Shown here one piece after another: positions 3,491-41,173 of a DNA stretch of 64,000 bases (position 1 is its first letter; every line of letters begins with the position of its first letter). This stretch comes from Dicyema japonicum. Its lineage: Eukaryota > Dicyemida > Rhombozoa > Dicyemidae. Location: the NCBI GenBank assembly GCA_011109175.1, contig RDEW01000082.1:62001-126000 (forward strand). The letters are read 5' to 3'. The notes below the pieces were generated by a model. It saw only the letters and a program-made list of their open reading frames with translations. It searched no databases and was not told the DNA's origin. The position numbers and the translations under genes are program-made.

Positions 3491-3839
3491 TTAGATAGTC
3501 TTCAAAAATCTCTCCAGATCATCGTAAAGTATCTTCATCCATCAAACCTTCGATGTACCCTATAGCATCTAATGTAGGGAACATCAGAAGGGAACACCCT
3601 CTTGTATCTTCTTCTGCTTCTAGACATTTTCTTCAATTCTCACCGTCCGCTGAAAGAAGTCCACCCAGGAACACAGTTGTGAGAATACCTCCAAAGAATG
3701 ATCCATTAAAGTGGGAGAGAAGTAGTAATCACACACCACGTTTATTGATCCACGGAAAAGAAACATAACACATCAAGACAACCCTGACAAAGTAGGGAGT
3801 AATGGGGACCAAATCCAGGAGATCCTGCCACAAAACCAT
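3491..3839 (-). CDS. Small unidentified gene with mini-introns
   Basis: The 3' part splices cleanly. Removing 3601-3625 (25 nt) and 3533-3558 (26 nt), both GT-AG on the minus strand, gives RTVRIEEN + RVFPSDVPYIRCYR + ILYDDLERFLKTI and a stop. The 5' part is uncertain. One reading starts at 3839 (MVLWQDLLDLVPITPY), uses a third GT-AG intron at 3650-3674, and needs an in-frame segment holding a TGA near 3725-3750 to be removed without an AG end. The alternative starts at 3766 and uses only two introns. It lies just downstream of L2HGDH on the same strand. I do not recognise the protein; the hydrophobic N-terminal reading suggests a small membrane protein. Confidence 0.45.
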
Positions 3840-3879
3840 CCCCAATTAGTACCCAATCATGAAAAGTAAAGACATAAGA

Positions 3880-5355
3880 TTAACTACGTTTATTATTAAA
3901 AATCATAGACTCAAAACGACAAACAATCTCATCAGCAATGGACATGGATGCTGTCGCCCCAGGAGAAGCACAATTACGCACGTGGAGTATTCTCGGAGAC
4001 ATTCCCCAACACTCCTACCTTCTTCGAATACAAAATCATCAAACAAATTCCCCATTACAACTCAGCGACTGTGCTCTCACACCAGAAGGTCCTCTTCATA
4101 TAAACAAACACGGCAAACCTACGAACATCACCAACAGTCAACGATGGCATATATCTACTCAGTTCCTTGATCTGCCTCTTAACACACAGACTCTTCTGCA
4201 TCTCGGAGACACCAAATCCAACATATTTGGAGGTAAGGGTCACAAATCCACTACAGTAAACACATCAATCACGGGGTTGTTATCATCCTGGCAATATCAC
4301 GGACACTGATGTATCCATACGAATATCCCTCACGGTGAAAGGCAAGGACAGCATTTGGCCCCAAGAATACTGACCCATCTACTCTGGGAGTGATATGGAC
4401 TCCCAGGAAAGGAAGATCAGGATGGGGTACCTCACATAATGAGTACTTAGTACAGGATATACGCAGGAGTTCACAAGTCCTGGGTTCTTTAACACCAAAT
4501 ACTCCCCACGAACAGGTATTACGGAAGGAGAAGCACTTCCCCCACAAGCACGTGCCAATATATCAGAGTACAGCCCGGCACAGAATACGGCATATCTCGA
4601 CTCCAAGTATCGTTTCTAAATATGACTAACAGCAACAGCCTGTTCGACGTCCTTTGACATGATTGAGATGGGGTAATCCTTCAGAGGGATCAATCCAACG
4701 CCCCCAACTTCAAAGCAGGTGTAAACAAGTCCCCCTAGATCACGAAAATCTCTCGCAAATGACTCCGTGACCACTCCATAGTCCACAGTAGCAGTGGAAG
4801 GACAGTGGATCGCTGACATCCCCTTTATTAACTCCCAAATCAATAACAGTTATGTTGGGCTCGATGTCCTGTATTTCTTCCAAAGTATTCAATAATTTTA
4901 TGTCACCCACTTTATTTTCTATCCCCCTCTTATATAAATCGTTGAGTCCCCCAAGTTGGCTAGCATTCGTGGCGACAATAAGCTACACTGGTTATGTACA
5001 TGTGCAACCTTTCCACATGTCTTGTAAGGAATCGACTTTTCGTTTATGTACTCGAGAAGTTTGATTCTCCCGGTGCCACACAATTTGTTCTGAAGACTAC
5101 CATGTTTGTAATAAATCCCCGAGTGAATGACCCCACTGTTTCTCCCTGATTGGTGAAGTCCTTGATTTAGGTTAGTGATTACCCAAGTCCACTTCCTTCT
5201 CCAATATTGCCATTGATAGTTCAGGGTACTTTGTTTTTAGGGCTCTCGCAGTGGCACACCCAATAATCCCCCCTCCCACAATAACAACATCAAATTGGTA
5301 GTTCTGTGATCTTAATAAACCTGTTAAATGTATTAATGTTACTTTTTATAATCAT
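3880..5355 (-). CDS. L2HGDH: L-2-hydroxyglutarate dehydrogenase, mitochondrial
   Basis: FAD-dependent enzyme that oxidises L-2-hydroxyglutarate to 2-oxoglutarate in mitochondria. Nine exons give about 430 residues, close to the family's usual size. The N-terminus [15 protein letters not shown] is basic, as expected of a targeting peptide. It leads into the dinucleotide-binding motif [14 protein letters not shown], then [60 protein letters not shown] and ILHVRN. Introns on the minus strand: 5321-5342, 5161-5182, 4983-5008, 4823-4847, 4616-4636, 4431-4453, 4251-4272 and 4094-4118 (21-26 nt, all GT-AG). Two compensating single-base shifts lie in the last exon: an extra T in 4031-4050 and a missing G in the G-run at 4001-4010. 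They bracket the otherwise conserved DDFVFEEG stretch, so sequencing error or recent decay are both possible. Confidence 0.93.
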
Positions 5356-5689
5356 AACTTTGGAAAAATTTGTTTGAACATCCTCGGATTTTTATGAAAT
5401 TTAAATTTCGGTACAAATGAAGCATCAATACAATAAATAAATATTTGACCACTAAACTACAATTTTCAAATTGTGTGGTGTTATTCAAATATTTATTTAA
5501 TTTTTTATCTAATGTTGTTTAATTAACAATGTTCAATTATTTATATAATAAATATTAAAACCGATATCTCTGAATATTATTGAGATCGTCGAAAAAGACG
5601 CCCATATCGTTTCGGAGAACACTAAAGGACCATTCATAACTTTACAGATGAAATAGTATGGCATTACTGAATTAGTTGGAAGACGCTAG

Positions 5690-6440
5690 AGGCAGGGGTG
5701 CTATATTGTCGCTGATAAATCAACTCTCATTTACGCTATGTTCTAGATATCCTCTTACAGTGCCTGTCAAACTTGCTAATTTATAGCAAAAACGAAACAA
5801 TTTTCTGTTTAGTCCGCCAGTTGTCTCAACCACCACTGCAGTGAACGTGTATTTTTGAGTTCCAGGCACTGTAGATTACCTTTCGTTAAGTTATCGCTTT
5901 ATAAATAGCTCCTGAGTGTTCTGCGATGATATTCGCTAGCTCGTTCTGATCCGCAATTCGTCCCCCATTTTTGTCATTGAGATTACTGAACTACTAGTTG
6001 GTTGAAAGCACTCCTGCGTAACCCATAGGCAAATGAATACTTAAGCTTCCGCATGTGCCGTGCTTTTTATTATTTGTTCTTCAAGTTTTCTCCATGCAAC
6101 ATTCCTTCTCTCACGCTTCCTAGTTCATCGATGTCGTCCGCTATTTTCATTTCCACCAATTTGGGCATAATCTTGACCCAGGCAGAGAGGAAGCGTAGTT
6201 TATTTCGTTCACGAAAGCCCCCAGTTACATTCTGATTGAATAAACCTTCATAATGAGGTCACATTGTCACCACATCGATTCGAAAAATATGCTCAAGCTG
6301 ACAGCGAGATTTTGTCACCACAGCTGATATCTGTGGTATTCGTCAAGTTAGTCAAGATCTGCTTTTGAACGTTCCCCAAGTTCCTGAGTTTGTATAGAGG
6401 ATCGGTTTTACGAACGAATGAAATAGACGTATCCGGAGAC
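5690..6440 (-). mobile_element. LINE C-terminal remnants
   Basis: The part around 5930-6440 is clearly related to 12000-12453 (shared segments such as the 'gcactcctgcgt' and 'ggcagagaggaagcg' stretches). That sequence encodes, on the minus strand, a RTE-type LINE C-terminus (RWRLFGHVLRM). Nearer 5700-5870 a minus frame reads VVVETTGGLNRKLFRF, resembling the C-terminal VETSG domain of family A. Both are heavily broken. Confidence 0.5.
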
Positions 6441-7224
6441 GTGCCAAAGACTCAAATCTTTTTCACTGTACTGGGTCACTAGTTAACAATAAAAATATCA
6501 AATATCAATTAAATTAATTAAAATATTATTTTTTTCAAATATTATTTCCTAAATATTTTTCACAGTGTAAAGGTTTTTCCAGGCAAGGGGGCTGAAGGTC
6601 CCTAGTTCATATCCCTATGCTTTGGCTTGACGAGTGAAGCCTCCATCAGTGAACTTGTTACTGCGGAACGGATTGTCTATAAAGGAAATACACCAAACAA
6701 ATATAAAAAAGAAGCGAAGAGCATTCCTTGGTTCTCCCTCTACGATAAGTTATAGTAACTGTTCTTCGCTTAAATAAAGTGTGTGTCCAGTCTGAGCGGA
6801 GCTATAGCTAACATAGCTGCGTATAAATTCAGTTTTTTTATTTCCTAAAATAATATTGATAGTTAAGTTACTTGAATAACATAAATTTAAATAAATAAAA
6901 GATACTCAATTTTTGTAAATAAGTCTTGCAAAGTTGGGATGACGACATCATCCGAATCTCCACTCGTATAGATATATAATTGGTTCTCCAAACCACCGAT
7001 TTGTCAGATATGCAACTCTGCCGAAGAAAATAGAACATTTACTGTAACAAACTATGAATTTAATCCAGCAATATAATTAGGAAACTGAAGGACCCATAAG
7101 GTAATTCTGTAGCCAAGTCAGACGATTGGGTTTCATTCAGCATTTAAAAGAAAAGTTGGAAGAAATATTTGTTAATCCCTTGACAGGTCCTGTGTCTCCA
7201 AATGTTTAGATTCAATCCCGAAAT
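6441..7224. other. No gene recognised
   Basis: AT-rich sequence with no conserved frame that I can name. A short piece near 6610-6680 resembles a stretch near 14690-14740 in inverse orientation, suggesting shared repeat DNA. Confidence 0.4.
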
Positions 7225-8201
7225 ATGAGTGTTAGAGGAAAAGTGATTTTGACTTTGTTGATTACTTCAGTTATTTCACTCAATATTACGGGAATCTTCT
7301 TCCTGTTGGAGAGTCTCTTTGCTGGTAGTGTGTGGTTATTTAATAGGTCCGTTCACAAGGAAATCGGTGGACATTCAATATGATTATCAAACTACATTTA
7401 CTCCCAGTTGGTGGGTTAGCAATCACTGGAATGCCGTCTTTGTGTGGTTTGGGTTCTTTATGGTCTACTGTTTGTCCACTACTATAAGGAGAATCCATTA
7501 TAATCAACGTTCCAAAGTGAAGCTTAGAACCCGGATATTTGTGTGAAGAACCACGAATGGGAGTTATTCACCCAATCGTTTACTTGTCGATTACCGCCAT
7601 ATTTCTGATATTGTTGGTTTATCTGTTCTTGTGGGACATGCTTCTCTTCCGTGGTTGTGTCGTTTTATTGATCTCCTGTATTCTATCCCACTATGCTTAT
7701 TACTTGTTCGCTTACCACATGAAACAAGTGGATGTCGACTTATTTGATTATAACAAGGTCACAGATGTGTGGCTTGTACGAGTCCTTGGGTTGAATGGCC
7801 TTGGCCTTCTTACCAGTTGGCTTACATTTCTATGTCTGCTAAACCTTTCCGTTGCTGTTGTTTACCAGGATGGGGGAAGTCCAACAGGCGTCAACCGTGA
7901 AGTTGCTGGAAATATATCTGGCATATTTTATTCTGGATGGATTTTGATCACTCTCCTTCTTGATTTGTTTATGCTTAAAGGCATCGCGAGGTATGTCATA
8001 CTTCACTATATTTCTGCGATGGTGTGTGGATGTGGAATTGTTACGTCCCATCCTTCAGGTCATGGAAACTCTCCGTGGGTTGGATTTGTCATAATAGGAT
8101 TAGCTGGGGTTGCTTTTGTTGCTAAACTGACTGTCGATGTTTGGCGTTATTTCAAAACCAAATCATCTCCAAGAATAGTTGAATCAAACTTACTTAACTA
8201 A
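7225..8201 (+). CDS. Heptahelical membrane protein with TspO-like Trp-rich motif
   Basis: About 311 residues after removing introns 7325-7346 (22 nt) and 7509-7527 (19 nt). The first hydrophobic segment is ILTLLITSVISLNITGIFFLL. It is followed by TTFTPSWWVSNHWNAVFVWF, which resembles the FTPAGWxFSIWG motif of TspO/MBR-like Trp-rich proteins and of an uncharacterised invertebrate membrane family. At least five more hydrophobic helices follow, and the protein ends RYFKTKSSPRIVESNLLN. The second intron is chosen because it restores the frame and yields QPGYLCEEPRMGVIHP, which fits the loop of that family; 19 nt is short even here. Transport or binding function is unknown. Confidence 0.7.
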
Positions 8202-8301
8202 TGTTTTTTAATTTTTTGGCTTAGTTTCTCAGATTTGGCATAATCTCTCTTATTTTGGTTCTAATTTGATTTTAGTCGGGGTACTTTACATAGCTCGCAC
8301 C

Positions 8302-8552
8302 ATGGTGGATACTCAGAGAGTTTCATACAATTCATCACCTATGAAGCTAGTACAGGTAGATACTCCGGGCTCTCCGTCTCGCCGTTCCAGGGAGGCTGGC
8401 TGCAACATTGGGAGTTCTGTCAGACCAGTAACGTTTAACGACATCATTCAGTTAAGTTCGGGAACCCCAGCGCTTCTTCGCCAAGATAGCGTCCTATGCA
8501 TCGACAGTCATCGGACCAAAAATGATGTACTTTTTCTATTTTTCGGGGGTTA
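8302..8552 (+). other. Unidentified open frame, possible exon
   Basis: A frame beginning MVDTQRVSYNSSPMKLVQV stays open for 83 codons and is Ser/Pro/Arg-rich (SPSRRSREAGC). It lies 100 bp downstream of the membrane-protein gene. I cannot find convincing partner exons or name a family. It may be a real low-complexity exon or chance. Confidence 0.25.
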
Positions 8553-9329
8553 GTCCTAATAATCGCTTATCGAATTCAAATCTCATTAATGGGTAATCAA
8601 CCTCAAGGGTACAACCTCTTCTCTTATAGGAGTTATCTACCAACTCATCCTATTCAAAGTCTCCATTCTGATGCCCTCAGAACTACCTTATCCACGTGTT
8701 GATTGGAAGAGGAAATAATTCTTGTTAGATACCTTCATTCCAGATTCAATTACCGTACCCTCCAAAGTTTTCTTCAATACTACTGCTTGGATATAAGTCC
8801 TCATTGTTTCTTCCAATAGAAATTATATTCTAATATTCCAACTTCCAAATTGCAAAAGAATATCATCGTTGAAAATTCTAACACGGATACCTTGTCTGTC
8901 TGCATGTTTGGTGTCCGTCCGCAGTATCTAGTTTTAGAGATAAGGCAATTCTCTGTGGTCCCAAAGTAAAGCAAAGGGGATTTTTATGATATCGAAATAG
9001 GAATAGAGACGACGAGAGAACGGTACCCAAGTTAGAAGATGTTGAAAATTGATTTTGTGTGTTAAAATAGGATTTTATGACTTGAATTAGGTCAAATTTT
9101 TGACAAGGCAAATTATAACGTGAATTCTCCCACCAAACAGCCTCCATCTTGACTCCAAGAGCCTATGATATTGAACGTTAAGAGGGAGAAGCCTTGTCCT
9201 TGAATTCCGTGTAGTCATATATTTTTAACTTAATTCATCACCTTAGTAATAATTATCGCAACCAAAAGAAACATTTTTTTTTAAAAATAATAAAAAAGTT
9301 TTTTTTTTAAATGTCGGAAGAATGCTTGC

Positions 9330-9440
9330 CAGAAAAAAGGGATCAACGAGAGGGTTCTGACTGAGACAAAGATTTCAATGGTTATATTCCGAGGGAACTA
9401 TTTCACGATCCAGGCAGCAGGCTTCCTCAATTAACATTAG
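9330..9440 (+). mobile_element. LINE family A 3' end fragment
   Basis: The sequence parallels 25700-25800 nearly block by block ('gggatcaacgag', 'ctgg/gactgag', 'ttcctcaattaacat'). It encodes the end of the family A protein (QRIxxxIxRGNxxxI...AAGFLN). Only the terminal piece is present. Confidence 0.55.
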
Positions 9441-9779
9441 TTTCTTTGTTAAATAAGTTTTTTTTAAATACCAGTTTATTTTTTTGTAAAATACTAGTAA
9501 ATTGATTATTAAATAAATATATCAAATTCCAATTTTGTGGATTTTTACTAAATAGCATTTATGGTAATGGTGCTTTATAGTACCCCTAAAGCATTTATTA
9601 CCCAATAAGCAATTATAACCCCAAGACCTAGACATCGGTCCCCTTTTTTCGGAGATAAAAACAAATTTTTGATTTTGTCTAAAAACGTGATTGGCGTAGA
9701 GGAGAGACGAATATGGGGCACCTTGACATCAATTCTCCTCCCCATTTTAAATTAACCTCCTTTGAAGCTTCTTTATTTA

Positions 9780-10139
9780 AAGTATCCAGTGATAAAGGAT
9801 ACCGTAACTCCCTTTTCCGTAATCTCTTCCAACAATGAACACGACTTTTTTTTGGTTCAATACACCTATTTCTGAAGGAATTCTCACGGGATTTGATTCG
9901 TCGTGCGAAATTGATCCACAACATTAGCAATCTTAGATAAAACCATATTTAGTAAAACATAGGTCAGTCGTCGATCATCGCTTATGTCCAGAATAATTTT
10001 AATAATGAAGTCAAGAGAACTGTCATGTCAATCAAAAGATTAGTCAATCTCATTATGTGAACGAACAAAGTGAATTCTTGACACATTTTTTTAAATTCCA
10101 GAAAATAGATTTCATTTATAAATCAGATTTCGCTTTACA
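9780..10139 (+). promoter_or_regulatory. Conserved upstream region of lectin-like gene copy 1
   Basis: About 350 bp before the start codon is closely similar to the DNA upstream of the other three copies (15900-16281, 39640-39906 and, inverted, 46331-46720). Shared blocks include 'ggatttgattc', 'catcgcttat' and 'aatcagatttcgctt' immediately before ATG. It is plausibly the promoter and 5' UTR. In copies 1 and 2 a T-run ending TTCCAG lies about 40-70 nt before the ATG and could be a 5'-UTR splice acceptor. Confidence 0.5.
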
Positions 10140-11475
10140 ATGAAAATGCTATTTTTCTATATTTTCTTTTTTGACTGTTCTGGTAACTCGCTTGAATTTG
10201 GTAAATCGATGTTGACACTTTAAATAGAACCACAGGATATAAGAGCCAACTTTGAAGGTCATGGCTACTACATCTACTACGATGACGGAGAAGAATTTAT
10301 TCAAGAACACCATACGTTTGCATGTATGCCTCACTATCTGGCGATCATTAATAGCCAAGCTGAACTTAAGTTTTTATCTTGTATGGTGATAGAGTTATTA
10401 AAATAGATTTACTAGACAAATATTTTTGGATAAACGGAAAAACATTAAATGGTGAGAATAAATTATATAATGGATCTCGTATGGTTGAATTTAATAATCA
10501 TCAAGCCTTATTCAAGAATTCTAAGTTATTATAATCAGAATAAATCTTACGGAATATATGTAGAATCATGTTCATTAGAAATGAGAGTTCAAAATATCAA
10601 CACGAAGATGAAAGGTGTTTGCGAAAAGGGTTAGATATATTTTTTGTTTCAGATACCATATTTTCTGGAGCAAAGAGTTTCAAGGCGAATGAATTTGATA
10701 ATATAACCGAGAGAAAATCTTACTTACATACAATGAAACAGGGTTTATAGGTTCACATGAAAATATACAATACTTTTACTACGATGACCACATCTATATG
10801 CATATAAAGAAATATATGACTATTAATGAAATTACCAAGAGTGCACAAAACACTCTGCTACCCTTTTATTGATTAAGAGTCAATCAGAGAATGAATTTGT
10901 TGGGAGTATTTTCTATAAATATAAACTCAGAAATTATGTCCGGAAGCTCATTTATTGGAGTTTCCGTTGATGTGGGTTATCAAAATTGGCAATGTGATGA
11001 TGCTAAAAGAAAGGTGCAAAACTCTCAAACTCCAAATGCAGCAGTCATGGATCATTGTAATGGTCATTGGAGATATATTTCTGATAGACGTGAAATTCAT
11101 TATGGATTATGTGTGTCTAGTTTAATTCTTTACTAATTTTTAAAGATAGCCTAGATTTATTACTGACTCTAAAATTCCTATTTCCTTTTCCGTCGAGTTT
11201 TAAGTTTGAAGAGATTTTAAAAAATTTCAACAGAAACTCTACAGCTATAAATAAAGGAGCTTCAACAAAAGTTAATTCCACATCTTTAACTAAAGAAGCT
11301 TCAAAAGGGGTTATTTTAATATTGATTTTAGAGCTTTCAATGCAGAAAAATCATATTAGTAAAAATATTCTTTGTAATCTTTTTCTCCAGTATCGCCATT
11401 CAGTCATTGACAGTTCTCTTGATTGATAAAATATTTAAAAAAGGACATAATGTATGTGTCATCACTAACCAATAA
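10140..11475 (+). pseudogene. Double C-type-lectin-like membrane protein, copy 1 (frameshifted)
   Basis: Start MKMLFFYIFFFDC (signal-like). Spliced exons then give RANFEGHGYYIYY, YLAIINSQAELKFLS, DKYFWINGKTLNGENKLYNG, NKSYGIYVESC and VCEK (first lectin-like domain). A second domain follows (VGYQNWQCDDAKRK...AAVMDHCNGHW), then a terminal helix ILVKIFFVIFFSSIAIQSL. Introns include 10201-10227 and 10381-10406, at the same places as in copy 2. Two frameshifts are seen relative to copy 2, near 10725 and near 10845. It may be a decaying copy, or the shifts may be base-calling errors. Confidence 0.7.
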
Positions 11476-11760
11476 TTATAATTTCTCGGTAGTCCACTAC
11501 TAAATCTCGGATTTCATGTTAATTTTTATTTTATTAATACTAAGTAGCACAAAAAATTATGTCAGAATGCACTTATTATTGATCTTTAGGTTGCATTCAG
11601 ATTATATGTTCTTGAAGAATACTCCCTACGCTGTAGCCAATAAACCAAACTTCCCCCTTTTCAGTGAACCACCTAAAATGTTGCTTTTAATAGCCATGAG
11701 ATCGCCCAGAGTTGCCGTTCTCATGTTTCTTTGAATCAAATCTCACGTGGATCCTTGATG
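11476..11760. repeat. Conserved 3' flank of lectin-like copies 1 and 2
   Basis: The downstream DNA (11470-11710) matches that after copy 2 (17545-17800), including the 'accaataattataatt' and 'accaaacttcccccttttcagtgaacc' stretches. Shorter matches follow copy 3 (41170-41290). The duplicated unit therefore extends beyond the coding region on both sides. Confidence 0.6.
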
Positions 11761-11930
11761 ACCCTTTGGATCATGGAGCCCGACAGAATAGATCTTCAGC
11801 TGCTGGACCAAGGATTCCTGATATCTCAACAGCAAATGTGACAAAAAAGTGATCCTCCGTAATGCTTCAGTACTTCCTTCTCTTCTGATCCTCGGCTTGC
11901 TTAGAAGCATGACCTAGATCCGAGAGTGAA
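11740..11930 (-). mobile_element. LINE C-terminal fragment (VEISGILGP domain)
   Basis: On the minus strand a frame reads FVTFAVEISGILGPAAEDLF, followed out of frame by IQRVIKDPRE. This matches the C-terminal domain at 24960-25140 (FAVETSGILGPQADELV). It is a broken 3' fragment. Confidence 0.55.
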
Positions 11931-12059
11931 GCGGCCTAATTTGGCTATTTTTCAGATTGTGAAGGTAATAAATATACTATTTTCTTGGTAATGAATATAT
12001 ATTTTTTCATGTAGTTAGTTAATAGCACTCCCGCGTTGCCATAAGCACGTAAAATGCCC

Positions 12060-15899: not shown

Positions 15900-16281
15900 A
15901 TCCAATGATAAGGATACCGTTACTCATTTTCCGTAATCTCTTCAAACCTTAAAGACGACTTTTTGTGTTTCAATACACTTATTTCTGAAGAAATCCTTAT
16001 GGGATTTGATTCTTTGAGCGAAACTGATCGACAACATTACAATCTTAGATAACACCATATTCAGTAAAATATAGGTCAATCGTCGATCATCGCTTATTTA
16101 ACTGGTGTTTAACTGATGGACTCCACAATCGTCTCAGAATAATTTTAATGATGCAAGTCAAGAGAACTGTCAATCAAAACCTGTCAAAACGAACAAAATT
16201 AATTCCTGAAAATTGACAAATTTTTTTTAAATTCCAGAAAATAGATTTTATTTATAAATCAGATTTCGCTTCACGATTAGA
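15900..16281 (+). promoter_or_regulatory. Conserved upstream region of lectin-like gene copy 2
   Basis: This is the same conserved block as upstream of copy 1, with an additional inserted stretch around 16100-16135. It ends in the shared AAATCAGATTTCGCTT segment just before the start codon. Confidence 0.5.
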
Positions 16282-17525
16282 ATGCGATACTTCTATATTC
16301 TCCTTTTTGACTTGATTCAATTTGGTAAATCAATGTTAACACCAAATGATATAACAGCGAACTTTGAAGATCATGGCTATTACATCAGTAATAAAGAAAA
16401 TGGTCAAAAAGACTTTATGCTTTCATGTATGCCTGACAATCTGGTGATCATAAATAGCGAAGCTGAACTTATATTTTTATCTTGTATGGTTTTAGAGTAT
16501 TTAAAATAGCTCTATTGAAGACAAATTTTTGGATAAACGGAAAAACATTAAATGGTGAAAATAAATTATATAATGGATCTCGCATGGTTTGGAATTTAAT
16601 AATCATCAAGCCTTATTCAAGAATTCTAAGTTATTATAATCAGAATAAATCTTACGGAATATATGTAGAATCATGTTCATTAGAAATGAGAGTTCAAAAT
16701 ATCAACACGAAGATGAAAGGTGTTTGCGAAAAGGGTTAGATATATTTTTTGTTTCAGATAGCATGATTCTTGATCCTAATACTACCGTGGAGAATACTAA
16801 AACCAAGAAAATAGTATTTACAGAGAATTTAGGTCCAAAAATACTATATTTTTACAACTATGACCACATCATTTTGCATATTGTGGAATATATGAATTTT
16901 ACTGAAATGACCCAAAAATGCACAAAATACTTTGCTACCCTTCTATTGATTAAGAGTCAATCTGATAATGATTTAGTTAACGGTATTTTCTATAAATATA
17001 AACTCAGAAATAATGTTCGGAAGCTCATTTATTGGAGTTTCTGTTGATGTGGGTTATCAAAATTGGGAATCTGATGATGCTAAAAGAAAGGTGCAAAACT
17101 CTCAAACTCCAAATGCAGCAGTCATGGATCGTTGTAATGGTCAATGGAGACCTATTTCTGATAAAAGTGAAATTCATTATGGTTTTTGTGTGTCTTGTTT
17201 AATTCTTTATCAATTTTTAAAGATAGCCTGGATTTATTACTGACTCTGAAATTCATATTACCTTTACCGCCGGATGCAAAAATTGACATATCAAAGTTCA
17301 AAAAAAGTCCAAACTCTAAATGTGTAAATAAGATCGACGAAAATCTTAACTCTATAACTAAAAATAAACAAGTTTCAAAAGAAGTTAATTTAAGATTGAT
17401 TTTAGAGCGTTCAAAACAGAATATTTATGTTAATCATAATATTCTTTGGAGTTTTTATATCTTGTTTCGCCGTTCAGACATTGACAGTTTGCTTATCCTA
17501 TCAAAAATTTAAAATCGAAACATAA
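16282..17525 (+). CDS. Double C-type-lectin-like type I membrane protein, copy 2 (intact)
   Basis: This is the only copy fully open after splicing (354 residues). Introns: 16325-16357 (33 nt), 16484-16509 (26), 16587-16610 (24), 16735-16757 (23), 16983-17007 (25), 17197-17222 (26) and 17384-17405 (22). The start MRYFYILLFDLIQF is a short hydrophobic signal-like segment. First lectin-like domain: ANFEDHGYYIS, CMPDNLVIINSEAELIFLS, FWINGKTLNG, YGIYVESC, VCEK. Second: GYQNWESDDAKRK...AAVMDRCNGQW...FCVS. Near the C-terminus IFMLIIIFFGVFISCFA is a transmembrane helix, with a short basic tail ending FKIET. The classical EPN/QPD and WND sugar-binding triplets are not evident, so carbohydrate binding is uncertain. 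It is probably exposed at the cell surface; function is inferred. Confidence 0.85.
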
Positions 17526-20836: not shown

Positions 20837-22515
20837 TTAAATTGTCTTTAAAACTTTCTCGAGTTCTTGCAGGATTTCGGAAGAGCTGTAATTGTTTGGA
20901 TTGAGTTGAAGAGACTTCATGATAGACACGTGGGCAGTCCGAAACTCCCCCTCCTTGAATATAAGCGAAATATCTCACTTTTTGGGCAATCATGGCAATA
21001 TTGAAGAACGGCTCATAGCAGAAAAGTCCGCAGTCCGCAGCCGTGGTGAAGTAGGAATAAGCCTAAAATGAGCAAGTGAAGAGTCAACAAGGTTGTGAGC
21101 CTCGTTATTGATTTCGATGACTCCAAGGTTGTTCAAAGCTTCCACGTGGGCTGGATTTAGCATGATCGCCAAGGAGAAACACTGTCGAGCAAATGAAATG
21201 TCCCCAGAATACTGAAAATAGTTAACCCGCCATACAAGTCCGATCATTCCAATGTTATAGTAGACTTCCGGCTTGCTTGCGTCGTCAGCCAAGGCCAGGG
21301 ACCGCTCGAAGCAGTTGTAGACCAAGTCGAACTCCTGGGACATATAACAGCAGAGTCCGATGTTGCAGTACACCTCCGTGTTTTCGACCCCCATTTGGAG
21401 GAGTCGCCTTAAAGATTAGACTTCAATGTGCCTGTATAATTTCAGGGCGATTTGGGGGTTCTCGTTATAAAAGTGTTCGGTGGCGATACAGGAGATTGAT
21501 TCCACGTGGGTGGCGTCAATTTTAAGAATATTTCGAAAAATGGCCGCTGATTCTTCTAAATTTCCGAGGTCCTGGTCAATTCTCGCTAACCACGTGAGCA
21601 AATTTATGTCATTAGGGAAATTCCTGAGTCCCATATTTAAAACTTCTTTGGCCGACGCAGGCTGACTGATTCGGCCATACAGTTTCGCCAAGTACAGGTA
21701 AATGTCAATATTCTGGAACAAATTTAAGGCCAAAAGAACTCCTTTTCAGCCTCACCAAACATCCCAAGCCAGATATAATTCCCAAATCTACCGGTAGTAA
21801 CACTTCCCCGCCTGAACCTTCCACCACCAATCTCCAGAGGTTAGGTAAGCGTCCACTTTTAGAGCTAAAGACAACGCCTTGAGCTATACCACGTGACTAC
21901 GTTTTTAATGTCGCTTTCAAAATAGAATAAGTACTCAAAGACAGCCTTGGAGAGATCCTTTTGGGGGACAAGCTTATCAAAGTCTAATCGACTAACGTTT
22001 ATCTCGAACTTTCCTGCGGCAGAAGAAGCCTTGAGATGTTAAAACCAGGAAAACGGTGGTCATTCGAATAAGCCGGCCAGTTGAAGAGGTAAATGGACGG
22101 GCTGTGGCTCCAGTCAGCCTCATTCTTGATTTTGCCGTCTTTAAAGAATCCCTCAAGCCCTGAACCCCAGTCTCCTGTCTTATAAACCCCGTGATTGGTC
22201 TTCCACTTTGTGTGATCGGCCTAAATCAAGGTTAACTAAGTACAAATTTGTGGGGGCCCTAGTTGCTTTCCTAGCGGTCTTCGCGATAGTACTTGTGTCC
22301 ATGGAAAGGTCAGCAACACTTTCAACGTCAACCTCAAGCTCATCGACATACACCTCCTTAGTAAGGGACATCATTTTGAGGTACCACACGGCCCAAATGA
22401 TAAATTAAGGTACTTTATTATCGGGAATGTTTCTAAGGAGTTTATCGCACAGCTCAGAGCAGTCCTTATATTTTCCGTGATTGAATAGATTGTAGGCTTC
22501 ATATAGTGAATCCAT
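20837..22515 (-). CDS. BBS8: Bardet-Biedl syndrome 8 protein (TTC8), BBSome subunit
   Basis: TPR protein of the BBSome, the coat that moves membrane cargo in cilia. Ten exons give about 488 residues, covering the family end to end: MDSLYEAYNLFNHGKYKDC, KEVYVDELEVDVESVADL, PITQSGRPITG, ARPFTSSTGRLIRM, GDWWWKVQAGKCYYR, YLYLAKLYGRISQP, DATHVESISCIATEHFY, YRRLLQMG, ARQCFSLAIMLNPAHVEALN. It ends ELEKVLKTI. Minus-strand introns: 22393-22413, 22221-22243, 22030-22054, 21878-21900, 21770-21791, 21408-21431 (GC-AG), 21212-21235, 21063-21088 and 20954-20978 (21-26 nt). The first and fifth restore the frame but end GG and TG instead of AG. One base is missing from a T-run at 21729-21742. It diverges from NDUFS2 across 108 bp. 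Confidence 0.93.
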
Positions 22516-22623: not shown

Positions 22624-24148
<1,525 letters not shown>

Positions 24149-32109: not shown

Positions 32110-32800
32110 CTTGAATTCTGTCCATTTTTTGTGGAGTAATAAAATGGCAAGGCAGTTCGGTGACGTCCAAAAAAATTAAATCCACCGGATTGGATAAAAA
32201 CTTTAGTTCTGTCATCCTTCTAAATACCCTGCGGAAGATCCTTGCCCTGGTCGTACTTAATCGGATCCAAGAGCCAGTGGACGGGTACTTGGGCCAAAGT
32301 CATAGTGTTTTCAGGATTTGGAGATCAACAGCTGATGTGGTATGGTGCCATAGGTGGGACTACGCTATTCAGTAAAAATTCCAAATTTAAATACCTTCGA
32401 GATCTCCGGAAGTATACAGCGACGATACTATGGAAATTGTTTACGTCGATGATGACTTTCAAAAAGGCTCGACTCCTTTCATTAAAAGTAACTTCGGTCT
32501 CTTTTGGGACTAAAGTGGAAAATGCGAGTAAGAAGTGAAGCATTATACAAAGGATGCTCGTCTGGACCTCTGCACCTGATCATGAAGATGGGGTGGAAAC
32601 TGTTTGGTCACATTCTAAGAATGGAGGGAGGCAAGCCAACAAACAGCATCATAGAATAATTCTTATAAACATCTGGGGTAAAGTTCCGAGGTCATCCGCG
32701 TACAACGCTTCTCAAATTTCTGAATAGTTACCTGGGACGGTGATAAGCTGGCAGTATGCGGAACTGGCATCGGACAGTATTGTTTCATCATCTAATTTCC
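32110..32800 (+). mobile_element. RTE-like LINE fragment
   Basis: The plus strand reads VILLNTLRKILALVVLNRIQ, then DGYLGQSHSVF and STADVVWCHRW, a conserved palm segment of RTE-like reverse transcriptases. A broken C-terminal piece (FGHILRMEGGKPTNS-like) follows near 32600-32650. Confidence 0.7.
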
Positions 32801-33408
32801 TCTTTTGATTTATCAGTGATTTCACTTAGACTGGATAGTCCGGTGATAAATATTGTTGATTTTTAGTAGTCGTCTTGTACAAATCTTTTCGATAATATCC
32901 TTAGATAAGTTAGGAGTGCATCTTAGATGAGGTCTCTTGGGCTGCGATTTTTGTCGGCAGTCAATAACCTCGTTAAAAATTTTCACGGAGGCATCATTGA
33001 TTTTAAGTTATAAAGTTGAATGACGTTCAGTAATCTCCTACTTTTTGAGACCCGGAGTTCTGTTGGATGCCAGCAGCAAGAATTAGGAGGATCCAACCAG
33101 ATTTTTTGGAGGAAAAACTCTGCACCTGTTCAGTAGTCACCGTCATCCAGTCCGTCTCCCTGAGGTTAAAGAACGAGGTGATACAAGATTAATTCCGATT
33201 CTTTTAGTTTCCGTAGTGAAACTTGTATACAATTTTCGCCATGTGAAATGAACCACAGAAAATCGATTTGACCTATAAGTTATGTATGCATTTAAATTAC
33301 CGTTAAACCATTTCTAAGACCATTTCTAATATTTTATGATGAATTAAATATAATTAATTTAATTAAAAAAAATATAATTTTGAAAATAACTGTTCTCTTG
33401 TTGTTTTG
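32801..33408. other. No gene recognised
   Basis: Repeat-like sequence to about 33250, then very AT-rich DNA directly upstream of the SmE gene, which may hold its promoter. Confidence 0.4.
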
Positions 33409-33717
33409 ATGAATACCAAAGTACAAAAAATATCAATTCAGCCAGTGGTTGTAATATAATATTAATAATTTAGAATCAACTCTTTAAATGTCTACAGACT
33501 GTAACCCACGTGTTAATATTATTAGAGAGCAAAGACAGTGGTAATCCTAACAGATAGTATTTATCATCGTATTGAAGGCTATATTGTTGGATTTGACGAG
33601 TTTATGAACATTGTGTTGGTTGATGCCTTCGAACTCAACACAAAAACATCATCCAGAAAGTCTTTGGGCAGAGTTCTTCTCAAGGGAGACACCATCAGCA
33701 TTGTCTACATGGATTAA
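33409..33717 (+). CDS. SNRPE: Small nuclear ribonucleoprotein E (SmE)
   Basis: Sm-ring subunit of the spliceosomal snRNPs, nuclear. Three exons give 85 residues against about 92 in other animals: MNTKVQKISIQPV, NQLFKCLQT, then RAKTVVILTDSIYHRIEG, YIVGFDEFMNIVLVDAFEL, KSLGRVLLKGDTISIVYMD. Introns are 33448-33473 (26 nt) and 33501-33525 (25 nt), both GT-AG. The Sm1 motif (RIEGYIVGFDEFMNIVL) and Sm2 motif (GRVLLKGD) are intact and there are no frameshifts. The C-terminus is shortened. It is flanked by LINE fragments. Confidence 0.95.
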
Positions 33718-34185
33718 TTCTCTTTCTTATTCTTTCTCTGTTTTTATGTAAAATAACCACGTGGTGGTCTTATTTGCCCTATTTGTCTACCAACATTGGC
33801 TTTGATAAAAAATGTCAAATATTAGTTAATCTAGTTTCCCTCTCCCAATTGCCTTCATCATTGATTTTTCAGAGAATGTCAACTGAGTAAGCCAAACGAA
33901 GTTGTCTAGCAAGAATTCATGACAAACACTATCGAGGGCTCTATATATTAGATATTCGACCTTTAGATGGTACTTATAGTCACATGCTCTAACTATCTAA
34001 AGTTTAGGTAGGATGATCATTTCCGCAGGTCGGTTCAGAGAGCCCCTTAAACAATGCTCTCTATAATCCTTGGCATAAAAAATTTGCCATTTACTCATTG
34101 GGCTTTTCTTTGCTTTCTACGGGTTAGATGCCATTCAGATGATTGACAACTTGCAATCGACTGGGATGTGCCACTTTTTAAATTC
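33718..34185. other. No gene recognised
   Basis: 3' flank of SNRPE followed by sequence of repeat character. No frame can be supported. Confidence 0.4.
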
Positions 34186-35000
34186 TCATAAAACTAGATA
34201 AGGAAAAAATAGAAATTCCCAAAATTGTAATTGGTTTTTTAATGGTCTAGGCTTATTTTGAATGGGGATTGCTGTAGTCACATTGAAAAGTTTCTCAAAA
34301 TGTGTGGCAATTACCTCCGCTTGCTTTTTAGTATTCAGTAATGTCTTGGCATTTTTGTCTTTGATGATTATTCGTTCATTCCTGTTTGTGTGGCGCAGTA
34401 AACGAGCGGCCATATACATTTGTGAATTATATTTTTGTTTGATACTTTATTGATTTTGCAAAATAGTTCTTTTTGGTGAAATGTCTTGTTCAGTCTGCTG
34501 ATTTTTCAACGGATTTGGTCCCTTTGCCTCTAAAGGACTTTTTTCTTGTTATAGTCTTTTTCGTTTAGTTTTTTTGTATGGATTTCTTTTAACTCCTTTG
34601 CTAACTCCTTAACTAGTTCTGTATGTATCGTCCAACCCTTACTGGCCATCTGATGGTACTGGCTTGCTGCTTCGTTTATTATATACTTTGTGTGATCCCA
34701 CGAAATTTCTACTGTTGGGTCCTTCAGATGAGAGCAGATGTATTTTTAGTAATTTTTGAGAATACGGTGTCGCACAAGAACAGTTTGTTTGCCGTGCAGA
34801 AATGGTCAAGTATGGTCGCAGGCAAGTTTATTTTCCCACGTCCGTGTCATCCCATTAAAGTATCTTCTGAATTCTTTTTTGTTCCGATTTTCGCATTCAG
34901 ATCGCCAGCAATGAATATCAGTGAGGACGACTCGACTCAGGTTTTTTGCCACTCTTCTACAGTGTGGTGCATATACATTTATAATTGTTAGTCAAAATTA
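34186..35000 (-). mobile_element. RTE-like LINE, endonuclease-to-RT linker region
   Basis: The minus strand reads MYMAARLLRHTNRNERIIIK, NAKTLLNTKKQAEVIATHFE, KLFNVTTA. This is the linker before the reverse transcriptase in RTE-type LINEs. Pieces nearer 34900-35000 resemble the end of the endonuclease domain. The copy is broken. Confidence 0.65.
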
Positions 35001-35028
35001 AAAATTTATTTATAACAATAAAATCGTT

Positions 35029-38000
35029 CTAAAGTCCAGCGGATATGATCGAGTGGCTGTTACCTCTGACTACTGCCAGGGATATCCTTTGGAAAAGCCA
35101 CTCGGTTTCCCGACGCTCCCTCGAGGCTTTGGTCAATAGACACCCAAGTGCTCTAAGGAAAGAGACCGTCTTGGGGCCAAAGACTCCGCTCGTCTCGACG
35201 ACCACTGGCTGTACATGGAAACTTGTTAGTCTATTTTTAGTGGAACATTGGTTGTTCAGATGGATCTGTATTATGCAGATCCTGTCATTCACCCGCCAAA
35301 TGCGACTGATGTCAGATGATAGTTTTTTTGTGAATGGCAAATCCATGACCTTAGTGTTTTGAGTCACTGGGTAGGCATATTAATCGATATTTTTCATGGT
35401 TTTCATCGAGATAGTACGTAATTTTCGTCTCTTGTATACAGCCAATAGAAACGTTATATTTTTCTAGGTCATCGCAGTGTATTTCTTGACTAAGGCTTAG
35501 ATATTTCTCTAGCATTGAACGTAAGAAGCTTTAGGGCAAGCATATTCTTTTGTATCTTGTGCTTTCTAGACATTTTTATTAACCGTTGTACAGAGAAGAA
35601 ACGAGGCACGTCACCACCTTATGACTCCTTGTGAGATAAATAAAAGTAATGTTCTAATGAGAGGCCAAATTAACGTAAAAATTTACTTTACTTTAATTTT
35701 TTTATTTAACCTTAAGATCACCAGGACAGATAGGTCAAACTAATTAGGTGATCCCAGCCTCCAACATCCGAACTCTCTTCATTTGGTCTTCTGATGATCC
35801 AACCGCATTCCGGAAGCGCCTTCTCTTCCTTCTGCAAAGAAATTCAATCGACGTGCACTTTTTTATTACCAACGAAATTTTTCTGCATGGGCTATTTTTT
35901 ACTTCAGTGGGTTTTCCTTGGCCATTCTTCAACATTGCCTTTTCAGAAACGAGGCCGCTAATGGGGATGTCCGTGTGGTGCATAATTTTCCGCCTGAGGG
36001 AGTTCAAACGGTCCACTCTCGAAGAGGGATTCGCAAATCTCCAGGCGGAGCAGGCATATTCAATGGTAGGTACGATGACTTGTTGATAGACCTTGCTGAC
36101 GCAAGCAGCAGGGGGGAAGGGGTCTTCTTTATCATCCCATTCAGAATGTTCCATTTCCGAAAATTCTTGGCAAGCATCTCCTTCATATAAAGAGAGGGAA
36201 CGTCTTTTGTTTTTCTGGGCTTTAGAATTGGCGTAATCAGGGAGTTTTTCCATATATTAGGTAGCTTATGGTAGTTGATAGAGTCGTTGTACAGTCTTGA
36301 TAGTATGGCCCGTACCTGAGGTCCAAGGTGTTTGAGGTGAATAGTGCAAATACCGTCGGGACCACAAGCACGAGTGGGACGTAGAATTTAATAGCCTTGT
36401 CAACATCATGGAGGGGTGAAGAAGATGGAATACGGTTATTGTTGCGGAAATGAAAATCGAAAATCGGCACTCATGGGTTGACAAACTTTCAATCCAAGTC
36501 TGATGGAGACTCCGGTGCGGACCGTTTCATCGTCTCGGTGAGTTCCCACGTTTCCAATGGGTAGGGCATTGATCTAAGCCCCGCTCCACTCGCATCTTGC
36601 AGTTAAAAGACAGGCTCGTCGGTGTTGGTTACATATTTTCAAAAGCCTCTCGTATTTATCCTCGCAGACAGACTCATAAAGGTCTCTCTGCCCGGTTGTT
36701 TGACTTTAGGGTGTACCAAATCTTCGATCTTTGACGACTCTGATGGGAGCTGGAGAATCATCATGATCAAATTCTGATTGGAGTCCAGTGAGGATTGATA
36801 TGCCGGGTGTGCTAAATCAGATGGTGAGAGAATTCCGAGTCCAGCAAAGCGAACGGGCAAGGTCGCTTGTTCCCATCCTTGTTCGTCGAATTCGACATTA
36901 GTAATACGTTCTGTCGTAGACCGGAATAGGGAGTCAATCGCCCCGAGTTGTTGCATTTTCAGGTAACATGGAGCTCCTCGAAGGACGTAATTTAATTTCT
37001 GCGTGGAAAAAGCGTTTTTCATGAGAAAAAGAGAGGTATGTGCATCCAGCATCCCAAGGCGTAAAAAGGTTTTTCTTAGTTGCTGTTCTTTAGCCAACAG
37101 AGTGTCGTTAATTCCAGTTTCAGCCAGAGGGCATCCAAGTATTTCCAAATGATCCGGCTCGATTTCCGATTTTAGGAATAAACCCCCGAAACATTAATAG
37201 GATCTGATTCCATTCATATCGGGAGAATCCATAATTAACAATTTCGCATTTGGATGCGTTTAGCATTAAACCAAGCGTATCCAATTGGGTTAGTAATCTC
37301 TGTAGACAGTCATATACATTGTTAGGATGATTCCCAGGGTACAATCATCCAAATACCACACGTTCAGCGGAGTAGTAAGGCATCTCATGACACGGTCGAC
37401 ACCGAGCAGAACAGTGCCGGTCCTAGTAGGTCTCCTTGCTGAACCACACGACGAGGGAATGAAGTATTTCCCATGTACAAGACTGGACGGTTTTCCATAC
37501 GAACAATGAACATAATTATATATAGACGGGTAATGGGTAAGACAATCTTCCAAAATTACATCGCGTCGTATGGTATTGAAGGCGTTTTTTATGTCAATCT
37601 TGAGGACCACACAGGGCATGTTCGTTCTGTTTCCAGTAAACATCCGAACGGCATGAACCGCCGCATCACATCCACCAGGAGTACCGACCCCTACTTGGGT
37701 TGGTCGCATTTGTTTGACAAGCATCGGAAGGATTGCTCTGCTAGCAAGTTTAGAAGCCATCAACGAAAAACAAACCCAAAGCAATAGGACGAATTCCTCC
37801 TCCACATTTATCAAAGGCAATTAACTTGGCGGAAAACATAATATGACGGATTGCTTCTGGTAATCTTCCGGAAAGCATTCTGTTGATTAACCTCGTTATA
37901 GCCGATAATAGCCGAACACCAGAGTTCCCCGTATTCTGATCAATTAGGTCTTTTAGGTGTCCTGGACGGAGTCCGTCAAGTCCCCACTGCTGCTTGGGGC

Positions 38001-38100
38001 GAATGAGAGATCGCATCTTTCACGTCCCCCTCAGAAATAATCAGACTAGGTAATTCTCCAGAGCAAGTAGGGATCTGTTCGTCCACTGGCGGACCTACTC
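35029..38100 (-). mobile_element. LINE family A, long copy with nested insertion
   Basis: This is the longest family A copy. On the minus strand from 38016: QQWGLDGLRPGHLKDLIDQN, FDKCGGGIRPIALG, then ASRAILPMLVKQMRPTQVGV, PCVVLKIDIKNAFNTIRRDV, LNVWYLDDCTLG (active site), QATLPVRFAGLGILSPSDLA. The C-terminal domain VVVETSGVFGPKTVSFLRAL...QRISLAVVRGNSHSI lies at 35029-35367. Several frameshifts are present. The piece between 35744 and about 36480 belongs to another LINE and interrupts this one. Confidence 0.88.
35744..36480 (-). mobile_element. LINE family B 3' end nested in family A copy
   Basis: The minus frame reads VSKVYQQVIVPTIEYACSAW, SSRVDRLNSLRRKIMH, a C-terminal LINE domain, ending RRFRNAVGSSEDQMKRVRML, EAGIT. 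The same 3' end recurs at 62460-62900 and, partly, at 44640-44890, so this family has dispersed 5'-truncated copies. Confidence 0.75.
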
Positions 38101-39060
38101 ATTTATAAGGATATTGATCCTTCTTAGCGATTTCCATAATGTGGCACAAGAGTTCTTGTGACATAGTCGTCCAACAAGGCGGCTCCATTTGAGTCTGTTG
38201 TTAGTTCATAATAAGTTCAGATAATTTGGTATTCAGTGAACGTATGGAATAGAAGGAGTTATTGGTCAGCAATCTATTCTTCTTCAGCGCATCTCGCTTC
38301 TTGATGAGTGACACTATTTGCGATGATAATCTTGGAATTAACTTCCTGTAAGAGGCGACAGGTATAAATAGTTTATCATCTTTTAAGATGATAGCAGACA
38401 GAATCTTGCCGTCTTATCTACTCTACAATTATCCATGGTAAGGTCAAGGAGACTATTGTCCACATACGCTCTGAAACCTAGCCAAAAAGCTTTCAAGTAA
38501 CTTTTTGAACTTTGTAGAACAAAACGGTAAACAAATAGGCCTTCTTTGTCTCAACACAATGGGGTTATGGTCGCTTGAGAAACCATAACGAACATTCCAT
38601 AAAATACATCAAGCAGAGGAACAGGTCCAGGGATGTTGGAATGTCTCTTCTGCGGGACGTGGTCCTTGTGTGAGCGTCATGGTCATTGAGGATAATCAAA
38701 GTATTAAGTAAAGAGAGGATGAACGCGCCATGATGTCGACTGATTGTGTCCGGAGCCAGAAAGGATGTTTGGCATTTAGGTCTCGCATAGTAGCAGATCC
38801 TTTAGTCTACACAGTTTCAATAGGTCTGGGATGTAAAAAGTAGTACATGATCCCTGAGCGGGATATAGACATTACATAGTGTAAAACATCTCGTAGAAGA
38901 AAATAGAAATCTGTTCCAGAATAAGATCCCCTTTGCAGAGAAAAGGTATAGAATGGGTGGCATAGTCAAAAGATCCGTCCTGTCAATCAAAAGACCACTC
39001 AATCTCATTATGTGAACGAACTAAGTTAATTTCTAAAAATTTTGGAACGGGGTAGTTGGT
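38101..39060 (-). mobile_element. LINE endonuclease-region remnant
   Basis: Broken minus-strand sequence. The stretch 38820-38920 is the inverse of 41860-41980 (shared 'gatgttttacactatgtaatgtctatatcccg' core), part of the LINE 5' region described there. 38975-39045 is a fragment of the conserved sequence found upstream of the lectin-like genes. Confidence 0.55.
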
Positions 39061-39300
39061 AGGCTACCTACTTAAGATCGCAGGAAGGGAAGGAAAGGTG
39101 AACGGTTCTCTTCCATGCAGAACTAGCACTGAACGCCACCACTACAACAGTTGAACCTCATGACGCCAAGTTTTTTGCTAGTTATGGAATGGCCACGTTT
39201 GCAGGAAATCTCTAGGTCCACAAGATTAATATATCCAAATAGCCTCCATCTTGACTACAAGAGCCCCATGAGATTGAAAGTTAAGAAGGAACAGATTAGT
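39060..39300. repeat. Left arm of inverted repeat around lectin-like copy 3
   Basis: 39120-39260 is the inverse of about 41340-41490 (shared 'gttatggaatggccacgttt' versus 'aaacgtgcccattccataac'). Together with the arms at 38820-38920 and 41860-41980, the lectin-like gene lies inside an imperfect inverted repeat of LINE-derived sequence. Confidence 0.65.
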
Positions 39301-39906
39301 CCTTGAATAAAATTTATGAATGATATATTTTGCTTAATTAATAATCACCTTTATTTATAATGGCGACTGGAAAATGTCAAATTTTTCCAAAATAGCAAAA
39401 AATACCAGTATATTTTTTGGAAAAAAAGTAGAACAAAATTGATTATTAAATGTATTATTATCAAATGCAAATTATGGGATTTTTATTAACCATTGGACGT
39501 TGTATAAGAGTCACACATCATTTAATTTCACAAAAGGTCGAGAAAATGATACTAAAGCCAAGGAAAATTGTTGGATAGCATAATTCTCCATCTTCTCCAC
39601 TTCGCTCTTTCTGAGATGTACTCAGAACCATAGATTTGCAGCAACGCAAAGTCGCATACTTATTCCTGAAGGATTCGCACAATTATTGCTGATCGCAGGA
39701 ATTCTCATGAGATTTGATTCTTTTGACGAAACCGATCACAACATTAGCTATCTTAGATAAAGCCATATTATGTAAAATTTAGGTGTCCTGTAATCAAAAG
39801 ACCAGTCAATCTCATTATGTGAACGAACTAAGTTAATTCCTAAAAATTTGGCACATTTTTTAAATTTCTGAAAATAAATTTCATATAAATCAGATTTCGC
39901 TTCACA

Positions 39907-41173
39907 ATGAGTATGCTATACTTTTATATTCTTTTTTTTGACTGTTCAGGTAATGATTGGTTTCATTATGGTAAATCAATTTTAATACTTTTAATAGATA
40001 CAAATGAAATACAGGCTAACTTTGAAGGTCATGGCTATTTTTTCCCTAGCGTTGCAGCTTTTCAAACAAAAATAAAGTATTCATGTAATGATGACTATTA
40101 TTTGGCAATTATTAATAGCCAAGCAGAACTTGAGTTTTTATCTTGTATGGTTTTAGAATTATTAAAATAGCTCTAATAAACAAATGTTTTTGGATAGACG
40201 GACGAATGTTGAATGGTTCATATGTTTTATTTAATGGGTCTTCTATGGTTTGGAATTTTAATTATCATCAAGCCTTATTATACACGTACAAGTGGTTATA
40301 ATCCCAATAAAATATACGGATTTTTTGTAGATCCCTGTTCTAGAGAAATGCGAATTAGAGAATACCACATAGTGATGTTTGTTGCGTGCGAAAAAAGTTT
40401 GATATATTTTTAGTTTCAGATTCCATGATTCCTGGAGCTAAGACTGTTTCAAATGAATTTGGTCACGAAACCCAGAATAAAGGGGTATATCAATACATTG
40501 AAACAGGTTATATTGGTACAATAAGACGTTCACAATATTTTTACTACAATGAGCGCATCTATATGATATTTATGCAATATTTGAATATTACTGAAATTAT
40601 TAATGAATGCAAAAAAGAATATGCTTTACCTGTCTCGATTAATGATCAATTAGAAAATGATTTTGTTCGTGGTATTTTATATAAATATAAACTTAGCAAT
40701 TATATCCGAACGCGTATTTATTAATACATTCGTTGGACTGGGTTATCATAATTGGGATTCTATCAAGGATAAAAAAAAAGTGCTAGACTCTGGAACTCCT
40801 TATGGAGCAGTTATGGACCTTTGTACCGGTAAATGGAAAGCTGTTCTGACACTAGTAAAGGTCATTTCGGACTATGTCAGTCAAGTTTGGTTCTTTGTCA
40901 ATTATTAAAGATCACCCGGAAACATTAAGGCAATTGGAACACTTTTTTGATTTTCGTTTAGATTTTTTGAACACATCGGAGAATACATCTGTATCTGAGT
41001 TTAACAAAAGTAAAAATAATTTAAACAAGGTTTTTAATATTAATATTTAGTTGGTCAAAATTTTCTGTGGAATTTTTTTCTCCAGTTTCGTCTTTCTGTC
41101 GTCGTTTATTTACTTAGTTAATAAAAATTTAAAAAATGACATATTAAACTTAGTTTTCCCAACGAACCAATAA
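39907..41173 (+). CDS. Double C-type-lectin-like type I membrane protein, copy 3
   Basis: About 364 residues with one suspected missing T at 40844-40845. Introns: 39971-39997 (27 nt), 40145-40170 (26), 40248-40272 (25), 40397-40419 (23), 40672-40696 (25), 40885-40910 (26) and 41030-41050 (21). Signal-like start MSMLYFYILFFDC. First domain: QANFEGHGYFFPSV, LAIINSQAELEFLS, NKCFWIDGRMLNGS, YNPNKIYGFFVDPC, VACEK. Middle: YIETGYIGTIRRSQYFYYNE. Second domain: GLGYHNWDS, GAVMDLCTGKW, FGLCQS. Transmembrane helix: VKIFCGIFFSSFVFLSSFIYLV, with a short basic tail. It differs from copies 1 and 2 in most surface loops while keeping the intron sites. Confidence 0.8.

Follow-up and report, generated by a model that had tools for sequence, protein, structure and literature searches.

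The question raised by the DNA studied here, a window of 64,000 nucleotides (nt; G000:C171:62001-126000, in an assembly of 64.67 Mb and 191 contigs), is whether the short GT-AG segments that interrupt its conserved genes are spliceosomal introns. Removal of GT-AG segments restored conserved proteins in the four testable genes of the window (NDUFS2, L2HGDH, BBS8 and SNRPE), which yielded 24 firm introns of 22-30 nt. Judged from the sequence, the segments are almost certainly real U2-type introns of a dicyemid that have shrunk to approximately 23 nt and would be removed by a conventional major spliceosome.

The segments were located with a purpose-written splice-aware aligner of proteins to DNA (BLOSUM62, affine gaps, GT-AG or penalized GC-AG introns of 17-100 nt without length preference, optional frameshifts of 1-2 nt). 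The references were database proteins, aligned PDB chains and human proteins. The intron set was built from reference proteins because a reference-free codon-usage gene finder, which missed PRPF8, gave few convincing genes among 41 candidates after retraining (window, 16 random stretches and 14 other loci).

With eight introns of 22-24 nt removed, NDUFS2 was identical to its reference at 311 of 426 residues. The corresponding values were 170 of 336 for L2HGDH (seven firm introns of 22-30 nt) and 204 of 476 for BBS8 (seven introns of 23-26 nt, one with GC-AG ends). Once two introns of 26 and 25 nt were removed, the SNRPE product matched human SmE at 42 of 79 aligned positions. The positions in the window are as follows.

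22779..22800, plus strand, NDUFS2 intron 1, 22 nt, where the protein is poorly conserved (N-terminal region)
22911..22933, plus strand, NDUFS2 intron 2, 23 nt
23136..23157, plus strand, NDUFS2 intron 3, 22 nt
23271..23292, plus strand, NDUFS2 intron 4, 22 nt
23652..23673, plus strand, NDUFS2 intron 5, 22 nt
23898..23920, plus strand, NDUFS2 intron 6, 23 nt
24005..24028, plus strand, NDUFS2 intron 7, 24 nt
24087..24110, plus strand, NDUFS2 intron 8, 24 nt
5161..5182, minus strand, L2HGDH intron, 22 nt
4983..5008, minus strand, L2HGDH intron, 26 nt
4823..4847, minus strand, L2HGDH intron, 25 nt
4679..4699, minus strand, doubtful L2HGDH segment, 21 nt, a multiple of three without a stop, which may be exon; uncounted
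4601..4630, minus strand, L2HGDH intron, 30 nt
4431..4453, minus strand, L2HGDH intron, 23 nt
4251..4272, minus strand, L2HGDH intron, 22 nt
4094..4118, minus strand, L2HGDH intron, 25 nt
22393..22413, minus strand, candidate BBS8 intron, 21 nt, GT...GG, seven extra residues including a stop (by eye); uncounted
22221..22243, minus strand, BBS8 intron, 23 nt
22030..22054, minus strand, BBS8 intron, 25 nt; a 16-nt alternative is possible
21878..21900, minus strand, BBS8 intron, 23 nt
21770..21791, minus strand, candidate BBS8 intron, 22 nt, GT...TG (by eye); uncounted
21408..21431, minus strand, BBS8 intron, 24 nt, GC-AG
21212..21235, minus strand, BBS8 intron, 24 nt
21063..21088, minus strand, BBS8 intron, 26 nt
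20954..20978, minus strand, BBS8 intron, 25 nt
33448..33473, plus strand, SNRPE (SmE) intron 1, 26 nt
33501..33525, plus strand, SNRPE intron 2, 25 nt

A sequence-only reading of this DNA had described ultra-short introns in these genes and had proposed alignment of the spliced proteins to orthologues as a check, by which conserved proteins were indeed restored. Its two introns in SNRPE were also those found by the aligner. The other genes contained ultra-short introns as described, but fewer of them: eight rather than nine in NDUFS2, seven firm introns rather than eight in L2HGDH, where the eighth is only the doubtful 21-nt segment, and seven rather than nine in BBS8, where the two remaining gaps lack AG.

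Similar introns were found elsewhere in the genome. PRPF8 (L040) contained 36 introns of 20-26 nt with one frameshift, and 1918 of 2288 aligned residues (84%) were identical to the Capitella protein. U2AF1 contained six introns of 22-26 nt (123 of 189 residues identical) and U2AF2 (L030) four of 22-23 nt plus one of 68 nt (171 of 306 identical), both without a frameshift. PAX6 (L045) contained six introns of 21-31 nt in the 1.5 kb covered, with 229 of 388 residues identical to Dicyema acuticephalum Pax6, and PUF60-like and ZRSR2-like genes contributed four further short introns of 21-26 nt. The 24 firm introns of the window were pooled with 52 from PRPF8, U2AF1, U2AF2 and PAX6; the pool excludes doubtful segments, the long U2AF2 intron of 68 nt and every intron of the lectin, ZRSR2-like and PUF60-like genes. 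The 76 pooled introns had a mean length of 23.6 nt with a standard deviation (SD) of 1.7, a median of 23 and a range of 20-31 nt, and 67 measured 22-25 nt. The uniform length below 30 nt characteristic of dicyemid introns was thus found, with 74 of the 76 measuring 20-26 nt and so inside the 19-27 nt that the sequence-only reading had given. These figures describe a small set of conserved genes and not an unbiased genome-wide distribution. Lengths divisible by three were not avoided (19 of 68 introns), which is nothing unusual. Base composition differed between genes, the introns of PRPF8 being 95% A+T inside and its exons 67%, compared with 61% and 50% for NDUFS2; the GC content of 16 random stretches of the genome was 35.9%.

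Two controls addressed chance. Eight mock dinucleotide end pairs were run on NDUFS2, L2HGDH and PRPF8, three of the six genes then analysed. The score of PRPF8 with GT-AG ends was 10109, with 36 introns and one frameshift, while the mock pairs produced 1-29 introns and 11-37 frameshifts, all with lower scores, the best being 9325 with 15 frameshifts. In the second control, each joint was slid over 37 shifts and judged by protein score alone, ignoring GT-AG. At 51 of 70 joints the GT-AG site was among the shifts sharing the top score (on average 3.4 of the 37), and GT..AG was present at only 1 of 2520 other shifts; the 19 misses scored 0.7 to 13 points under the best shift. Both controls back the earlier claim that chance does not account for the segments.

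The segments could also be DNA eliminated from the genome of some cells, like the internal eliminated sequences (IES) of ciliates. Dicyemids are said to make extrachromosomal circles and to eliminate DNA in development, and a size of 20-30 nt resembles that of the shortest ciliate IES. Ciliate IES are bounded by TA and are cut out of DNA. The segments found here are bounded by GT and AG and not by TA, and in each of the three control genes mock TA..AT ends opened fewer gaps, needed more frameshifts and scored lower. Furthermore, the three domain introns of PAX6 here, with phase 0 (paired domain) and phases 1 and 0 (homeodomain), repeat the phases published for Dicyema Pax6 from complementary DNA (cDNA) and genomic clones (PMC2222250). 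Core splicing factors are also retained, and elimination of this kind is considered highly improbable.

The ends of the 76 introns, which the aligner required, were GT at 75 and GC at one 5' end and AG at every 3' end, with TAG at 51 and AAG at 17. Positions +3 to +8 carried at most 0.08 bits of information above intron composition, and the exon edges favoured A at -2, G at -1 and G at +1 (68 introns in each case). Intron interiors were T/A-rich. The 5' consensus GURAGU was nearly missing, GTAAG or GTGAG being found in only 3 of 76, and the longest pyrimidine run averaged 3.4 nt, with a run of at least 9 nt in 1 of 76. A 2008 survey that included 41 D. acuticephalum introns describes the 5' boundary of dicyemid introns as very weak and reports that they lack a branch signature (PMC2483917). 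The weak 5' splice site is therefore common to published dicyemid introns, and absence of GURAGU does not exclude U2-type membership.

In contrast to the survey, a branch-like motif was detected outside PRPF8. The 38 introns concerned were enriched in A at -7 and -8 with z above 4. With SNRPE added, 15 of 40 introns contained a UAA whose final A lies at -6 to -8, against 4.0 expected, a count matched by none of 3000 within-intron shuffles in any three-position window. When genes were left out one at a time, 10-14 of the 14 motifs in the 38 introns remained. In the mechanism we propose, a conventional major spliceosome would read each intron as one short unit. The role of long consensus sequences would pass to the terminal GT and AG, the adjoining exon edges, a U-rich interior and a branch A lying 6-8 nt before the 3' end, all confined to a fixed span.

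Several observations weigh against the identification as introns or against this mechanism. Exonic GT..AG pairs of 20-26 nt numbered 201 in 11,255 exon bases. The 36 AT-saturated introns of PRPF8 had no excess of UAA at -6 to -8 (8 versus 9.5 expected), and the motif was picked after the position profile of the same introns had been viewed. Longer introns were found in U2AF2 (68 nt) and the ZRSR2-like gene (55 nt), together with two doubtful introns of 80 nt in poorly conserved parts of the PUF60-like gene. Five 1-nt frameshifts were left in the three long window genes (two in NDUFS2, one in L2HGDH and two in BBS8), and the two further BBS8 gaps of 21-22 nt, read by eye, start with GT and end with GG and TG. 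One of the two BBS8 frameshifts is at one non-AG joint, and a stop is retained at the other; these gaps may reflect genuine non-AG ends, errors in the sequence or gene decay. By eye, the window frameshifts at ~23779, ~23844, ~4052 and ~21733 are at homopolymers.

Assembly errors or pseudogene decay could open gaps to which GT-AG alignments are fitted by chance. The window frameshifts and those in PRPF8, PAX6 and the PUF60-like gene are in accord with such an origin, as are the two BBS8 joints without AG and the N content of the sampled DNA (15,032 of 309,375 bases, approximately 5%, overlapping loci included). The first PAX6 frameshift, in the paired domain, looks larger than the others. Errors or decay are nevertheless a very unlikely source of the gaps in general, given that PRPF8 is 84% conserved with 36 tightly sized GT-AG gaps against a single frameshift, that mock ends performed worse, and that U2AF1 and U2AF2 are free of frameshifts. 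The scattered frameshifts themselves are probably assembly errors.

The exonic decoys bear on how such introns would be recognized. A length ruler, that is a fixed GT-AG spacing with no branch consensus, could be the main means. The narrow spread of lengths (SD 1.7 nt, n = 76) and the near-zero information at +3 to +8 are as expected of a ruler, as are the weak 5' ends and lack of a branch signature in the survey of Dicyema introns (PMC2483917) and the lack of UAA excess in PRPF8. Since decoys of the same length are common in exons, terminal dinucleotides and length are not sufficient to specify an intron. Real introns were separated from the decoys by A+T content (area under the curve, AUC, 0.86) and T content (AUC 0.88), and UAA clusters at -6 to -8 outside PRPF8. 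Recognition mainly by a ruler is thus rather unlikely; as length is insufficient alone, the additional cues probably come from composition, from the exon edges and from the branch motif. The exonic pairs were slightly rarer than in synonymous-codon shuffles (201 versus 223, z -1.8, a count this low or lower arising in 13 of 400 shuffles). Selective removal of such decoys from exons was considered and is not claimed, the z of -1.8 being weak and AG itself being more strongly depleted (672 versus 707, SD 10.5).

The machinery needed by U2-type introns was then sought in the assembly. The U2 small nuclear RNA (snRNA) had 25 matches, 22 above the cut-off, and the branch-pairing GUAGUA (GTAGTA) was intact in all eight copies read. 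SF1 (recorded by positions only), U2AF1 and U2AF2 were present and, with PRPF8 and U2 snRNA, mark the major spliceosome. The retained U2AF probably acts through AG recognition and protein contacts and not through a pyrimidine tract. Human introns dependent on SPF45 (RBM17) are likewise short, with a pyrimidine tract too small for U2AF and a model intron of 56 nt (PMC8363638). An SPF45-like gene here (L038, contig C130) has a G-patch identical at 24 of 42 residues and, by eye, an N-terminal DEYDP..PNDY stretch; unlike in the human system, no UHM was found in the DNA examined, and both U2AF subunits are kept. Introns of 55-80 nt are found among ultra-short ones in the splicing-factor genes U2AF2, ZRSR2-like (L043) and perhaps PUF60-like (L035/L037, which is frameshifted too), where they are possibly regulatory.

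Components of the minor spliceosome were also identified. A single copy of U12 snRNA is located at G000:C68:163471-163599 on the minus strand (L046; 85.4 bits against a cut-off of 53). Its 5' sequence is ATGCCTTAAACTTATGAGTAAGGAAAA, which presumably agrees with that of human U12. SNRNP35 (L034) matched the human U11/U12 35K chain 8r7n_C with 169.8 bits compared with 79.9 for the best U1-70K chain, and the ZRSR2-like gene was identical to its reference at 42 of 106 residues. These sequence matches suggest that the minor spliceosome is retained, in part. None of 74 introns analysed had a U12-type 5' end (RTATCC), and no report of minor introns in dicyemids was met in the literature searched. As a tentative proposal, somewhat less probable than its negation, two spliceosomes may be kept alongside introns of ~23 nt: a major one using a branch A at -6 to -8 without a pyrimidine tract, and a minor one, with U11/U12-35K, a ZRSR2-like factor and a U12 snRNA whose 5' part is canonical, that continues to excise a class of introns in which the 5' site, the branch site and the 3' end must all be accommodated within a comparably small length.

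Dicyemids are minute parasites that live in octopus kidneys. To our knowledge, introns as short as ~23 nt are known among animals only from this group. The best match of PAX6 was D. acuticephalum Pax6 (378 bits, 70% identity over 89%; next match 309 bits) in a search of 5.8 billion proteins, with scoring limited to the 7,953 candidates that had the most words in common with it. In a tree of 25 sequences the two paired at 100/100; both are long branches and the bootstrap is not fully settled. All named proteins among the 120 NDUFS2 matches listed were from animals, the top match being an unnamed protein with a repeated stretch. A different short-intron lineage, such as an orthonectid, mite or myxozoan, could be considered since introns have shrunk in other parasites, with a median of 57 bp in the orthonectid Intoshia linei. 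The best match of PAX6 and its clade with Dicyema leave that origin scarcely credible. The assignment to a dicyemid made in the sequence-only reading is supported by the PAX6 match, tree and intron phases.

Ultra-short dicyemid introns are already known, in print since 2007. Those of D. acuticephalum are also uniform and very short in conserved genes, with a mean of 26.2±1.9 nt (n = 16) (PMC2222250). The mean found here (23.6±1.7, n = 76) is approximately 2.6 nt lower (Welch p 5e-5), in gene sets that differ; Pax6 has seven introns in D. acuticephalum compared with the six in the 1.5 kb covered here. A median of 27 bp with about two thirds below 30 was reported for Dicyema sp. (PMC6543705), and 6.2 introns per gene with a mean of 38.2 bp for whole-genome gene models of D. 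japonicum (PMC6736024). Both reports cover all gene models including long introns, whereas the small conserved-gene set analysed here is shorter on average. Introns of Paramecium (20-35 bp) and the Bigelowiella natans nucleomorph (18-21 bp) are likewise tiny and uniform with a weak consensus (PMC2222250, PMC2483917) and, in the 2008 survey, without a branch signature (PMC2483917); these lineages are unrelated to dicyemids.

The window also contains lectin-like copies, with a marginal match to Pfam PF00059 (E 2e-4; at 22.4 bits just short of the 22.6-bit cut-off), and a forkhead open reading frame. Paralogue alignment, read by eye, backs lectin introns at two places only, and not the roughly seven per gene previously described. 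One is the following.

40248..40272, plus strand, predicted intron of lectin-like copy C, 25 nt; the equivalent stretch measures 22 nt in copy A, 24 nt in B and 25 nt in D (paralogue alignment, by eye)

Copies B and D (window 16260-17225 and 45320-46340) lack splice ends found in A and C, an intron-1 end in B and a GT at another joint in D (by eye). These two copies may be pseudogenes. The forkhead-domain frame (window 63232-63675, plus strand; domain recognized by eye) is intronless, and the statement that nearly every gene has such introns was too strong. The identity proposed for a TspO-like gene was not upheld, its draft protein having no Pfam match at E<=1. One tRNA-Ala, on which both programs agree, and a second, weaker Rfam tRNA match were found, and some sequences look like mobile-element remains. 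An imperfect tandem repeat at window ~290-785 has units like TCATGACCATTAGCGTCACTT.

The present results are partly new with respect to the UAA branch-like motif, the retention of PRPF8, U2 snRNA, SF1, U2AF1 and U2AF2 although pyrimidine tracts are nearly absent, and the parts of a minor spliceosome. The raw sequence confirms an animal genome with introns near the smallest known, which retains the standard recognition proteins even though the sites they normally bind have almost disappeared. The least information that a spliceosome needs thereby becomes a testable question in an animal.

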